Below, in pieces: positions 4,476-37,775 of a DNA stretch of 61,819 bases; the first letter of the stretch is position 1, and every line of letters begins with the position of its first letter. The stretch is taken from NCBI GenBank assembly GCA_947630925.1, contig CANRJM010000011.1, forward strand, positions 1 through 61,819, read 5' to 3'. The notes below the pieces were generated by a model. That model was not told the DNA's origin. It did no database searches and saw only the letters and a program-made list of their open reading frames with translations. Source of the DNA: an uncultured Lachnospiraceae bacterium. GTDB taxonomy: Bacteria > Bacillota > Clostridia > Lachnospirales > Lachnospiraceae. Made by a program: the position numbers and the translations under genes.

Positions 4476-5330
4476 TTGAAGAAAATATATTTGCTTTTTG
4501 TCTTGTTGGTATGTTTTTTGTCTGGCTGTAATGTTTTTGGGAGAAAGAGCGTGCCTTTAGAAAAGGATTCGGTAAAAGATACTTTAAAAGCAGAAAGCTC
4601 GCATGAACCCGTTTTCGGTCGGAATGTGCAGAAGAAAGCAGGCACTGGGAATCCTGATGTAGAGAAGATTTCTGTTGGGGAGAGTACGATAGCTTTGCGG
4701 CAGGGAAAATCGAAAAAATATGTAGAAGTGATACGTACAAGAAGTGGTGTGGAAGAGCTGCTCGCCACATTTAAATGGAAAGTAGAAAGCTGCCATATAG
4801 AAGCTTTTAAGAATGTACTTTGCCATGATGGTTTTCTTTTTTTTGTCCGGCAACAATATAATCCATATGGAGCAGAAGTATATTATATAGGGTTGGAAGA
4901 AGAAAAGGCAAGAGTACTGTTTGCTAATCATGCTATTTATGATGAAGATACGAAAACATATCATGCTAGTTTTGATACAGTGCTTGATGTGGATTCTGAT
5001 GGGGAACAGGAGGTAATTTCCAATGTTTATTATTTTGTCGATGGAGGGGCAGAAGCCTGTCTATATGATTATGTAGATGGGAAAGTTATGGAGGGGGCTT
5101 GCCTGGATTTATTTGACTTAAAAAAGGGACAGTATATGAATGGACGTGTGACAGATTTGAAATCAATGTACAACGAAAAAACAGGAAAGGTAGAAATTCA
5201 TTATATCTCTTCTAAAAAGAGGAAATCTGCCATAAAAAAATATAAACTGGATCCAGATAAGATTACCATGAAAAAAAGGGAGTTATTTTGGGTAAGCGAT
5301 GAGATGAAAGATATTGAAAACTATGATTAG
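4476..5330 (+). CDS. Hypothetical lipoprotein
   Basis: A 284-residue protein beginning MKKIYLLFVLLVCFLSGCN: a short signal peptide with a lipobox (LSGC, cysteine at residue 18), so it is a lipid-anchored exported protein. The start codon is TTG at 4476, chosen because GAGGAAGAG lies 7 bases upstream and the signal peptide begins there. About residues 165-180 contain DVDSDGEQEVISNVYYF, resembling the calcium-binding-like DxDxDG loops found in FG-GAP/VCBS-type repeats of extracellular proteins. No catalytic motif is recognised. It is 27 bases ahead of deoC and has a strong promoter upstream. Function unknown. Confidence 0.75.
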   Translation: MKKIYLLFVLLVCFLSGCNVFGRKSVPLEKDSVKDTLKAESSHEPVFGRNVQKKAGTGNPDVEKISVGESTIALRQGKSKKYVEVIRTRSGVEELLATFKWKVESCHIEAFKNVLCHDGFLFFVRQQYNPYGAEVYYIGLEEEKARVLFANHAIYDEDTKTYHASFDTVLDVDSDGEQEVISNVYYFVDGGAEACLYDYVDGKVMEGACLDLFDLKKGQYMNGRVTDLKSMYNEKTGKVEIHYISSKKRKSAIKKYKLDPDKITMKKRELFWVSDEMKDIENYD

Positions 5331-5357
5331 TAGTTTATAGATAGAATGGAGGGTACA

Positions 5358-6023
5358 ATGAAAGAAAATATACTACATAAAGTTGACCATACGTTACTAA
5401 ATCAGACAGCAACATGGGAAGAGATAAAGGAACTTTGTGAAGACGCGATAAAGTATCAGACGGCGTCAGTCTGCATTCCTCCGCTGTATGTCAGTCAGGC
5501 AAGGAAATATGTGGGAGACCGGATGAAAATATGTACGGTAATCGGGTTTCCAAATGGGTATATGACGACGGAAACAAAAAAATTTGAAATAAAAGATGCA
5601 TTGAAGAACGGAGCAGATGAAATTGACATGGTTATTCCGATAGGAAAGTTAAAAAGTAAAAAAGATACAGATATTTTGGAGGAAATCAGAACATTAAAAG
5701 ATATTTGTCAAAATCATATTTTAAAAGTTATTATTGAAACCTGCCTTTTGACAAAAGAAGAGAAAATCAGGATGTGTGAAATCGTGACAGAGTCGGGAGC
5801 AGATTTTATTAAGACTTCAACAGGATTTTCGGAAGCAGGAGCAGTTTTTGAAGATATTGCATTGTTTCGGGAACATATAGGGAATCGGGTAAAAATAAAA
5901 GCGGCAGGAGGAATCGCTTCTTTTGAAGATGCAGAAAGATTTGTGGAATTGGGGGCTTCCCGCCTGGGTACCAGCCGCTTGGTAAAAATAATGAAAGATT
6001 TAGAAAATAAAAGTAGAAGATAA
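5358..6023 (+). CDS. deoC: Deoxyribose-phosphate aldolase
   Basis: Splits 2-deoxyribose 5-phosphate into glyceraldehyde 3-phosphate and acetaldehyde, the last step in breaking down deoxynucleosides. The 221-residue protein is a class I aldolase TIM barrel. The Schiff-base lysine is K152 in FIKTSTGF, the second active-site lysine is K181 in KIKAAGGI, and the conserved aspartate is in DEIDMVI (about residue 90). The start at 5358 is preferred over the ATG at 5346 because that ATG lies inside the ribosome binding site (ATGGAGGG). It is followed by cdd and pdp, a standard pyrimidine deoxynucleoside salvage set. Confidence 0.95.
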   Translation: MKENILHKVDHTLLNQTATWEEIKELCEDAIKYQTASVCIPPLYVSQARKYVGDRMKICTVIGFPNGYMTTETKKFEIKDALKNGADEIDMVIPIGKLKSKKDTDILEEIRTLKDICQNHILKVIIETCLLTKEEKIRMCEIVTESGADFIKTSTGFSEAGAVFEDIALFREHIGNRVKIKAAGGIASFEDAERFVELGASRLGTSRLVKIMKDLENKSRR

Positions 6024-6046
6024 GAATAAAATGCTAGGAGATTAGG

Positions 6047-6640
6047 ATGAAAAAGGCAATTTATGAAAAAACGATATTATTTGCCATGAAGGCAAGAGAA
6101 TATTCTTATGCGCGATATTCTGACTTTCGTGTAGGCGCCTGTCTTGAGGCGGGGTCCGGCGCTCTCTATGGGGGATGTAATATAGAAAATGCATCATATT
6201 CTGTTACAAATTGTGCAGAGCGAACCGCTTTTTTTAAAGCAATCAGCGAAGGGGAGACCACATTTAAAAGAATAGCGATTGTTGGAGGATATCCAAATCA
6301 GAAATTGGAAGATTGCATGCCTTGCGGCGTCTGCTTACAGGTAATGGAAGAATTTTGCGACCCGGATCAATTTGAAGTGATTGTTGCAAAATCAGAGAAG
6401 GATTATAAAGTGTATTTATTAAAAGATTTGCTTCCAATGGCTTTTGGCAGCAAAAATTTAATAGGTAATTGCGAAACGTTCCTATCGTCTATAACCATTG
6501 TGTCATCTGCACAAAACCAACACAGGCACGCTTTCGCTATGTTTCGCCACGCAGCGGTACATAAAGCGCCGCTGCCGCGCCGCTTAAGTACCGGCGGGCT
6601 CGCAATACCTGTTTATGGTTTTGTACAGATTACACAATGA
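6047..6640 (+). CDS. cdd: Cytidine deaminase with C-terminus replaced by an inserted element
   Basis: Converts cytidine and deoxycytidine to uridine and deoxyuridine. The zinc site is complete: NCAERTA (C56, E58) and MPCGVC (C93, C96). Normal enzymes of this type have about 130-140 residues. Here the reading frame continues to residue 197 because a 213-bp palindromic element (6462-6674) entered at codon 138. Its 10-bp target duplication allows the original end to be rebuilt: removing the element and one copy gives codons for GSKNLK and TAG, a 139-residue enzyme. All catalytic residues lie before the insertion, so the protein may still work, with an arginine/histidine-rich tail of about 58 foreign residues. 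It lies between deoC and pdp. Confidence 0.9.
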   Translation: MKKAIYEKTILFAMKAREYSYARYSDFRVGACLEAGSGALYGGCNIENASYSVTNCAERTAFFKAISEGETTFKRIAIVGGYPNQKLEDCMPCGVCLQVMEEFCDPDQFEVIVAKSEKDYKVYLLKDLLPMAFGSKNLIGNCETFLSSITIVSSAQNQHRHAFAMFRHAAVHKAPLPRRLSTGGLAIPVYGFVQITQ

Positions 6641-6674
6641 GGTATCCTATTTTGAATCGTTTTGCAAATACCTA
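6462..6674. mobile_element. 213-bp palindromic MITE-like element inserted in cdd
   Basis: The ends are imperfect inverted repeats: TAGGTAATTGCGAAACG on the left and the complement of CGTTTTGCAAATACCTA on the right. Further in, ATTGTGTCATCTGCACAAAA (6497 onward) is matched in inverted form by a segment near 6611-6638. The centre holds a third, GC-rich palindrome running from GGTACATAAAGCG to CGCTTAAGTACC. A perfect 10-bp direct repeat, AAAAATTTAA, flanks it at 6452-6461 and 6675-6684. It encodes no transposase, so it must have been moved in trans. Folded, the RNA would form one long structured hairpin between cdd and pdp, which could slow or protect the transcript. Confidence 0.78.
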
Positions 6675-6704
6675 AAAAATTTAAAATAGAAAAGAGGGGC
6701 GCAT

Positions 6705-8030
6705 ATGAGAATGTATGATATCATTGATAAAAAAAAGCGGGGAAATGAACTGACAAAAGAGGAAATTAATTTTGTGATTCATGGATATGTGGCAGAGGAA
6801 ATTCCGGATTATCAGATAGCGGCGTTATTGATGGCAATATATTTTCAGGGGATGACAGAGGAAGAGCTGCTATATCTGACAAATTCTATGGCGGTTTCAG
6901 GAGATTTGGTGGATTTATCTGACATAAATGGCATAAAGGTTGATAAGCACAGCACAGGCGGGGTAGGAGATAAGACAACGCTTGTGGTAGCTCCTCTTGT
7001 AGCTGCCTGTGGTGGAAAAGTGGCGAAAATGAGTGGAAGAGGATTGGGTTTTACCGGTGGAACAGTGGATAAGTTAGAGTCTATACCCGGATTTCAGACG
7101 GCGATTGCCGAAGAAGAATTTTTTCATACGGTAAATGAGATTGGTTTATCTGTAATCGGTCAGTCTGCAAACATTGCGCCTGCTGACAAAAAGCTATATG
7201 CCCTTCGGGATGTAACGGCAACGGTAGACAGCATTCCTCTGATAGCGGCTTCTATCATGAGTAAGAAACTGGCGGCAGGAAGCGATAAGATTGTTTTAGA
7301 TGTTACCGTTGGAAGCGGCGCTTTTATGAAAACAAAGGAAGACGCCGTTGCACTTGCTGAAAAAATGGTCGCCATTGGCGAGGGCGCGGGTAAAGAGACC
7401 ATTGCGCTCCTTACGAATATGGATGTTCCCTTGGGGATTTCGGTTGGAAATAATGTTGAGATAGTGGAAGCCGTCAATACATTGAAAGGCAAGGGACCGA
7501 AAGATTTTCAGGAAATTTGTGAGATTTTTGCCATACATATGCTTGTACTTGGAGGAATAGGAGATTTTGCAGCCTGCAAACAGAAAGTAATGCAGGCGAT
7601 TGCAGACGGGACAGCCCTGGAAAAGTTTGCACAGATGGTTAGATGGCAGGGAGGAGACAACACCTATATTTATCATCCGGAAAAGTTGGAAAAGGCGAAG
7701 TACAAAACAGATTTATTAGCAGGAAAATCCGGATATATTTATCACATGGATACGGAATTATGCGGCAGGGCAGCAGTCCTATTAGGTGCAGGACGGGAAA
7801 CGAAGGACAGCGGCATTGATAGTACAGCAGGTATCTGCTTTTATAAGAAAACAGGCGCTCAAGTGAAAAAAGGAGAACTTCTTGCGACATTATATTCTTC
7901 TTCCAGGGAAAAATTAAAAGAAGCGTTGGCATATTTGGAAAAAGGATATGTTTTTGACGATAAAGAGCCGCCAGTATGGAATAGCGTTATAGCAAAAGTA
8001 ACAAAAGATGGTGTGGAAGATTTGTATTAA
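6705..8030 (+). CDS. pdp: Pyrimidine-nucleoside phosphorylase
   Basis: Phosphorolysis of uridine, deoxyuridine and thymidine to the free base and (deoxy)ribose 1-phosphate. The 441 residues match the usual length of the family. The N-terminal helical domain starts MRMYDIIDKKKRG. The phosphate-binding signature KVDKHSTGGVGDK begins at about residue 80, followed by MSGRGLGFTGGTVDKLE, the family signature. The C-terminal domain (about 345-430) is the usual small beta-rich PYNP domain. The start has GAGGGG seven bases upstream. With deoC and cdd it funnels pyrimidine deoxynucleosides into base salvage and central metabolism. Its leader now includes the right arm of the palindromic element. It converges on the next gene with five bases between the two stops. 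Confidence 0.95.
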   Translation: MRMYDIIDKKKRGNELTKEEINFVIHGYVAEEIPDYQIAALLMAIYFQGMTEEELLYLTNSMAVSGDLVDLSDINGIKVDKHSTGGVGDKTTLVVAPLVAACGGKVAKMSGRGLGFTGGTVDKLESIPGFQTAIAEEEFFHTVNEIGLSVIGQSANIAPADKKLYALRDVTATVDSIPLIAASIMSKKLAAGSDKIVLDVTVGSGAFMKTKEDAVALAEKMVAIGEGAGKETIALLTNMDVPLGISVGNNVEIVEAVNTLKGKGPKDFQEICEIFAIHMLVLGGIGDFAACKQKVMQAIADGTALEKFAQMVRWQGGDNTYIYHPEKLEKAKYKTDLLAGKSGYIYHMDTELCGRAAVLLGAGRETKDSGIDSTAGICFYKKTGAQVKKGELLATLYSSSREKLKEALAYLEKGYVFDDKEPPVWNSVIAKVTKDGVEDLY

Positions 8031-37710: not shown

Positions 37711-37739
37711 ACGGTATCAATCCAGGTAGTTGTAAAACT

Positions 37740-37775
37740 TAGGTATACTATTTGGAATTGTTTCGCAATTACCTA
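37740..37775. repeat. 36-bp relative of the ends of the cdd palindromic element
   Basis: This segment matches the right end of the element at 6640-6674 in 30 of 35 positions. Its complement begins with TAGGTAATTGCGAAAC, identical over 16 bases to the left end of that element. It has TAGGTA and TACCTA at its own ends but no clear target duplication. It looks like a solo terminal module or a shrunken copy, between the FMN-bind-like gene and addB. Confidence 0.6.

Follow-up and report, generated by a model that had tools for sequence, protein, structure and literature searches.

A miniature transposable element at the cdd–pdp junction of a Lachnospiraceae genome and the association of its insertion sequence family with Shine-Dalgarno words

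Results

The element between cdd and pdp

The window, that is the whole 61,819-nucleotide stretch of DNA analysed here (contig CANRJM010000011.1, assembly GCA_947630925.1, from an uncultured Lachnospiraceae bacterium), contains, in this order, a putative deoC, cdd and a putative pdp, and a 213-bp element stands at the junction of the cytidine deaminase gene cdd with pdp (Table 1). This study concerns that element, a putative miniature inverted-repeat transposable element (MITE), and the insertion sequence (IS) family to which it appears to belong. A sequence-only reading of the window had placed the element between perfect 10-bp target-site duplications and assigned it no coding capacity; sequence and coordinates were borne out, and the 213 bp contain no transposase gene. 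The three nested inverted repeats it described are a fair account of the structure, the inner one (arms 92% complementary) being the sole long one returned by a repeat search of the element, and the terminal pair and the GGTAC/GTACC core being recognized by eye. The two terminal repeats differ by two mismatches within their 16-bp ends. The 233-nt span has a predicted RNA fold of −85.8 kcal/mol (z −8.9), a stability reached by 0 of 200 shuffles, and a strong hairpin folds from both strands of the element.

As the same reading had proposed, removal of the element together with one repeat restores a 139-aa Cdd that ends in GSKNLK and is followed by TAG; the final 58 residues of the present 197-aa frame are absent from this repaired form. 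Residues 12–137 match the tetrameric cytidine deaminase model (134.6 bits against a cut-off of 113.65). A protein search found cdd relatives in 49 of 61 genomes (the window's own and 60 relatives), and C-terminal ends were read in 30 loci, own included, with L089 cut off. The tail past the aligned region measures 3–17 aa in all 28 readable relatives versus 62 here, which agrees with the repaired ending; relatives have short ends throughout, so the long cdd is not their common form. Three of these loci (L092, L094, and L102) show, by eye, an uninterrupted cdd end and then an apparent pdp start (ATG...MYD/MYN) without the element, and purine-rich words precede the pdp start in L094 and L102 (by eye).

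Table 1. Features of the element, its target and its surroundings in the window.
Feature	Coordinates	Strand	Remarks
MITE, 213 bp, without transposase gene	6462..6674	+	Further copies in the same genome; 16-bp end common with parent IS
Target-site duplication, pdp-distal copy	6452..6461		AAAAATTTAA; final codons of ancestral cdd
Target-site duplication, copy adjoining the Shine-Dalgarno word	6675..6684		AAAAATTTAA
Terminal inverted repeat	6462..6477	+	TAGGTAATTGCGAAAC; 16/16 with right end of parent IS
Terminal inverted repeat, pdp-facing end	6659..6674	-	TAGGTATTTGCAAAAC on minus strand; 2 mismatches to 15-bp pattern
Inner 24-nt inverted repeat, left arm	6496..6519	+	
Inner 24-nt inverted repeat, right arm	6616..6639	-	
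GGTAC/GTACC core	6556-6560 / 6588-6592		By eye
Fixed 5-bp spacer AATAG, duplication to word	6685..6689	+	Contains ancestral cdd stop TAG (6687-6689)
Target word AAAAGAG	6690..6696	+	6/7 to AAAGGAG, offset +5; starts purine-rich pdp ribosome-binding region
cdd, cytidine deaminase	6047..6640	+	197-aa frame, stop 6638-6640
pdp	6705..8030	+	Named by the sequence-only reading; open reading frame here
deoC, 5' of cdd	5346..6023	+	Named by the sequence-only reading; open reading frame here
Solo family end	37739..37775	-	TAGGTAATTGCGAAAC on minus strand; AAAGGAA (6/7) 15 bp out; no partner end seen nearby

The parent insertion sequence

The parent insertion sequence, IS1182-like and with a DDE transposase, is about 1.75 kb long and occurs intact in many Lachnospiraceae. 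Its two ends, TAGGCGTTTGCGAAAC and TAGGTAATTGCGAAAC, are unlike, with 13 of 16 bases common to both, and the MITE end agrees with the right one at 16 of 16 positions and with the left one at 13 of 16. MITE and IS also have similar duplication lengths and the same target register. The view that the element is a MITE, a non-autonomous derivative of this IS, is supported by these agreements; the same ends with 10–12 bp duplications recur elsewhere in the window's own genome, and the parent IS is found in relatives, in line with the MITE assignment made from the sequence alone. The transposase with TAGGTA...TACCTA ends envisaged there stood insofar as the parent IS was found, those bases being the outer part of the 16-bp end.

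The transposase matched the NCBIfam IS1182 model at E values of 3e-17 and 3e-21, but with 62.5 and 75.8 bits, below the curated cut-off of 270; the DUF772 domain (PF05598) was matched with 44.6 and 48.1 bits, above its cut-off of 23.1. An RNase-H-like fold, the invariant D, D, E and the Y(2)R(3)E(6)K spacing, which we take to be the signature of Tn5/IS4-type DDE transposases, place the protein in that type. A sequence search of the transposase against solved structures gave no match at E ≤ 1. By tblastn, the parent transposase hit five plasmid records, of which two span 80% or more of the query, and none from phages; the 213-bp MITE had no match in the phage collection or the plasmid collection. 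In one IS (L137), neither end region contains inverted repeats of at least 12 nt.

Insertion register relative to the Shine-Dalgarno word

One scan of named genomes confirmed 135 relatives and gave loci for the best 80, which by record titles were mostly Lachnospiraceae or clostridial bins, with one titled Bacteroidales. A script, blind to the flanking words, chose the ends and the best duplication (8–13 bp, at most one mismatch). Both ends and a duplication were obtained in 36 of the 80 loci, and L181 and L222 represent the same site, leaving 35 distinct sites. AAAGGAG is a Shine-Dalgarno word, and it starts (at least 6/7) at +5 past the duplication on the transposase-5' side in 30 of these 35 sites, with a full 7/7 match in 26, and in none of the 35 at offsets 0–4 or 6–16 on the same side. 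On the opposite side the word stands at +5 in one site (L194, reversed), and its background rate is 0.25% (1725 of 692276 positions). Counted by column, G occupies +4 in 27 sites, +8 in 33 and +9 in all 35. The duplication varies in length from 9 to 13 bp and the 5-bp spacing is constant, which argues for a near cut fixed by the word and a far cut free to float.

The remaining 44 loci include 15 without a readable left end or enough flank; 27 of the other 29 have the word 14–18 bp from the end, and in a copy on a Roseburia plasmid the distance is 17 bp. On the B. proteoclasticus plasmid pCY360 (L285, 2692–6238), two head-to-tail IS copies stand at one ribosome-binding site, in the order 14-bp far duplication, copy, 14 bp, copy, 11 bp and then ATATTGGAGGG before ATG. 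This arrangement, of which L172 shows a part, reads as two insertions at one site that would share their near edge and differ in the far one, with the duplication restoring the target. Full IS copies are oriented with the transposase-5' end toward the word, and the like-ended MITEs enter both ways.

Copies in the window's own genome and across the family

The window's own genome is a 93.5%-complete draft of 2.42 Mb in 55 contigs. A DNA search of it gave 36 matching stretches at E ≤ 0.001, a number that is not a copy count, as the window copy is included and palindromic copies match a second time on the opposite strand. Seven further places show 90–96% identity over 179–217 of the 233 query bases, so the sequence does recur outside cdd–pdp, and shorter copies resemble internal deletions. 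The 15-bp end pattern with at most two mismatches occurs 52 times versus 17 for the reversed control, and the clear duplications are 10–12 bp long with 0–2 mismatches. Fifteen end pairs were delimited, 14 of them MITE-like and one an 826-bp IS remnant, and the word lies at exactly +5 in 12, the remnant and the window copy among them. By eye, the eight long copies are split evenly, four and four, as to which of their ends is turned toward the word. The genome holds 164 exact GAAAGGAG words versus 147 for the reversed control.

A genome of another genus (G227) contains 86 exact TAGGYAATTGCGAAAC ends, and among the facing pairs listed 19 of 24 have the word at exactly +5; five printed interiors have, by eye, nothing in common with the window copy. 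The smallest elements (L268 and L280, both from G227) consist of two 16-bp ends and 23 bases, and 55 bp is very small for mobile elements. Genomes of the same genus as the window's (G001, G013, G012, G004, and G026) carry copies of a stretch like element query bases 74–119, which may represent additional MITE families that have a core in common. Two stretches of the window's own genome that start 970 bp apart (C1:183621 and 184591; L118) are identical over 135 bases and are presumably tandem flagellin-type genes.

Of 299 family genomes, own included, 37 contain the pattern of the reversed Shine-Dalgarno word, 2–32 free bases and the end, at 120 places in total, with the reversed-pattern control at 0 in every row. 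Among the matches listed (105; 104 distinct strings), the gap is 13–20 bases in 103, 16–18 in 81 and 29 in one. The end alone was found in 74 of the 299 genomes at about 475 places versus about 40 for the reversed control; each element contributes two ends to such counts, with a single one turned toward the word, and many of the listed ends are near the end of a contig.

DNA word or translation start

A start codon 3–14 bases past the word with at least 40 open codons was found at 22 of 31 word-bearing IS sites versus 29 of the 79 AAAGGAG words found elsewhere in those loci (Fisher p 0.0015), an excess at gene starts that may reflect selection or extra context. In L166 (around 4857–6614) the IS splits a methylase gene, with the N6_Mtase profile matched from 2 to 150 upstream and from 154 to 308 downstream, and at this site the word is part of the coding sequence, in continuation of the methylase domain. 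Since this word is not a ribosome-binding site, the DNA word itself seems to be what is read, which suggests recognition of DNA rather than of translation. In L147 the piece downstream matches Uma2 from profile position 47 and the 56-aa piece upstream matches nothing, so that this copy probably lies inside a Uma2-like gene, less surely than L166.

Discussion

Proposed mechanism and its bearing on cdd

Taken together, these results make it very probable that the element is a MITE of a Lachnospiraceae IS and that the Tn5-like DDE transposase of this IS uses the Shine-Dalgarno word (G)AAAGGAG to choose where it inserts. In the mechanism that we propose, the transposase complex would be held on the word, the near-side cut would fall 5 bp before AAAGGAG (4 bp before GAAAGGAG), the other strand would be cut about 9–13 bp further upstream, and the element ends would be joined there, with filling of the gap giving the duplication of 9–13 bp. 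Word and spacer would stay intact, so that the gene could keep its ribosome-binding site and the site could be hit again. A full IS enters one way, its transposase 5' end (TAGGCGTTTGCG) toward the word, and MITEs, with their two ends alike, enter both ways.

At 6452–6684 the target would be the pdp ribosome-binding site. The pdp word comes directly after the ancestral cdd stop, and therefore an insertion 5 bp upstream of it would have had to hit the last cdd codons, giving cdd its 58-residue tail. The long Cdd and the hairpin before pdp would thus be found there because the landing rule puts the insertion there, and the longer predicted Cdd is best read as a by-product of insertion at the pdp site. 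The addition of about 58 residues had been anticipated from the sequence alone; the companion claim that the insertion rewrote the end of cdd gives half of the picture, as the insertion point would be set by the pdp ribosome-binding site and not by cdd. The 6400–6760 region shows no sigma-70-like promoter or terminator pattern, so no claim is made on pdp expression, and the candidate role of mobile promoter was rejected on the same promoter result.

A broader proposition, which we hold with less assurance and still consider rather probable, is that this is a widespread Lachnospiraceae IS/MITE family in which the transposase reads the Shine-Dalgarno word directly, cuts at a fixed distance upstream, spares the ribosome-binding site and regenerates the target through the duplication, so that copies can stack, in which unlike ends set the orientation, and which would be the first transposition system aimed at ribosome-binding sites.

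Observations that do not fit

Several observations weigh against these readings. Among the IS loci, L219 and L211, both from the group of 29, do not fit; L194 is reversed; L172 abuts the end of another copy with the duplication between them, and its contig ends before any word; and L203, L205 and L209 have GAGG (+6 to +9) and not AAAGGAG, with GG at +8/+9 kept and a longer transposase of 495 aa. Three of the 35 sites (L147, L156, and L195) share duplications with loci from which the idea was formed (L137, L139, and L141). An empty site for L207 was sought in seven genomes, with no intact match and two weak part matches in G355. Three of the 15 end pairs in the window's own genome deviate, one with the word at +4, C1:122203 without a duplication and C5:117123 with a doubtful one, and 5 of the 24 pairs in G227 miss +5, among them L263 and L264, which look like copies of one repeated region, and L275, whose duplication has an indel. 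A start codon and open reading frame follow at only 22 of the 31 word-bearing IS sites. The draft of the window's own genome yielded only a remnant transposase, and mobilization of its MITEs in trans is therefore something we infer.

Alternative explanations

The alternative that survives best, which we nevertheless regard as unlikely, is indirect targeting, in which the transposase is recruited to the purine tract by a host factor or by some feature of the DNA there (a nucleoid protein, bent or melted DNA, or a complex linked to RNA polymerase or the ribosome). It would suit the tolerance of the word to changes (GAAGGGAG, TAAGGAG, and AAAAGAG), and there is precedent in TnGBS-type elements, which stand at fixed distances to sigma-A promoters and for which contact with RNA polymerase has been proposed (PMC3942029). 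The methylase insertion in L166 lies away from a translation start and argues against a ribosome-linked factor, while a host DNA-binding protein would be compatible with it.

Random insertion, followed by selection that retains only those copies that do no harm, being located immediately upstream of ribosome-binding sites, is very improbable. A gene does follow word-bearing sites more often than other words, and selection or context may add to the pattern; the single-base register would nevertheless be unexplained, the far edge being free to vary by 4 bp and the word never straying to the neighbouring offsets, and the copy splitting the N6_Mtase gene, and probably that in the Uma2-like gene, still stand at a word.

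Still more improbable is that the element is a regulatory RNA, such as a riboswitch-like leader or attenuator of pyrimidine salvage. Its strong hairpin on both strands between cdd and pdp would invite this idea, which was rejected because an Rfam scan of 5900–7200 was empty at E ≤ 1; the promoter and terminator patterns absent from 6400–6760 and the copies at other loci, either side up and with duplications, also speak against it. It is scarcely credible that AAAGGAG is a part of the element or moves along with it: the word does adjoin most copies examined, but it is placed beyond the duplication and on a single side, both spacer and duplication differ between sites, the L166 word is host coding sequence, and L094 and L102 have purine-rich words before pdp without the element.

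Implications

An aim at this word would let these elements land in front of a large number of genes while leaving most of these uncut, and could offer a reason why MITEs stand between operon genes and alter gene ends such as that of cdd. With a 16-bp end, a smallest copy of 55 bp and a target word of 7–8 bp, the family may provide a compact, testable system for studying how sequence-specific targeting arises in a Tn5-fold transposase. Sister elements with a longer transposase (L203, L205, L209, and L285) seem to use GAGG at +6 to +9, and their comparison could map the word-reading residues. For annotation, the case warns that C-terminal tails like the 58 residues of Cdd can be transposon sequence.

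Comparison with known systems

Known targets of bacterial transposons include att sites, REP palindromes, hairpins and promoters; here the target would be the ribosome-binding word itself, to the base. Within the open-access literature (titles and abstract starts among the matches listed), no report of Shine-Dalgarno-targeted insertion was found. The landing rule seems new, which is not proof of novelty, and an IS with MITEs is of a known kind.

The parent IS resembles the IS1182 family, which includes IS1272, through its significant but low NCBIfam IS1182 match and its DUF772 domain. IS1272/TnSha1 is reported to insert into hairpins and to delete part of the target without duplication (PMC4923244), whereas the present elements make 9–13 bp duplications at a linear, non-palindromic word. 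REP-targeting insertion sequences are likewise reported to use an abundant intergenic sequence as landing site (PMC1525189), the REP target being a repeated palindrome and not a ribosome-binding site. Correia elements, small, multi-copy and mapped predominantly just upstream of genes, and other bacterial MITEs are alike in size and copy number and differ in their ends, and neither ribosome nor Shine-Dalgarno is used as a term in the available part of the MITE review that describes them (PMC10969869). A Turicibacter group I intron is reported to have a GGAGG homing site (PMC4227781), and its mechanism is a different one.

The Mutator-like TnGBS, ISLre2 and ISKra4 elements also encode DDE transposases and are reported to insert 15–17 bp from sigma-A promoters, in one orientation if their ends differ and in both if they are alike (PMC3942029). 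The present family shares with them the fixed distance to a gene-expression signal and the relation of end likeness to orientation. Its transposase matches the DUF772 and IS1182 models, and the fixed signal found here is the Shine-Dalgarno word, that of those elements being the -35 region of the sigma-A promoter.
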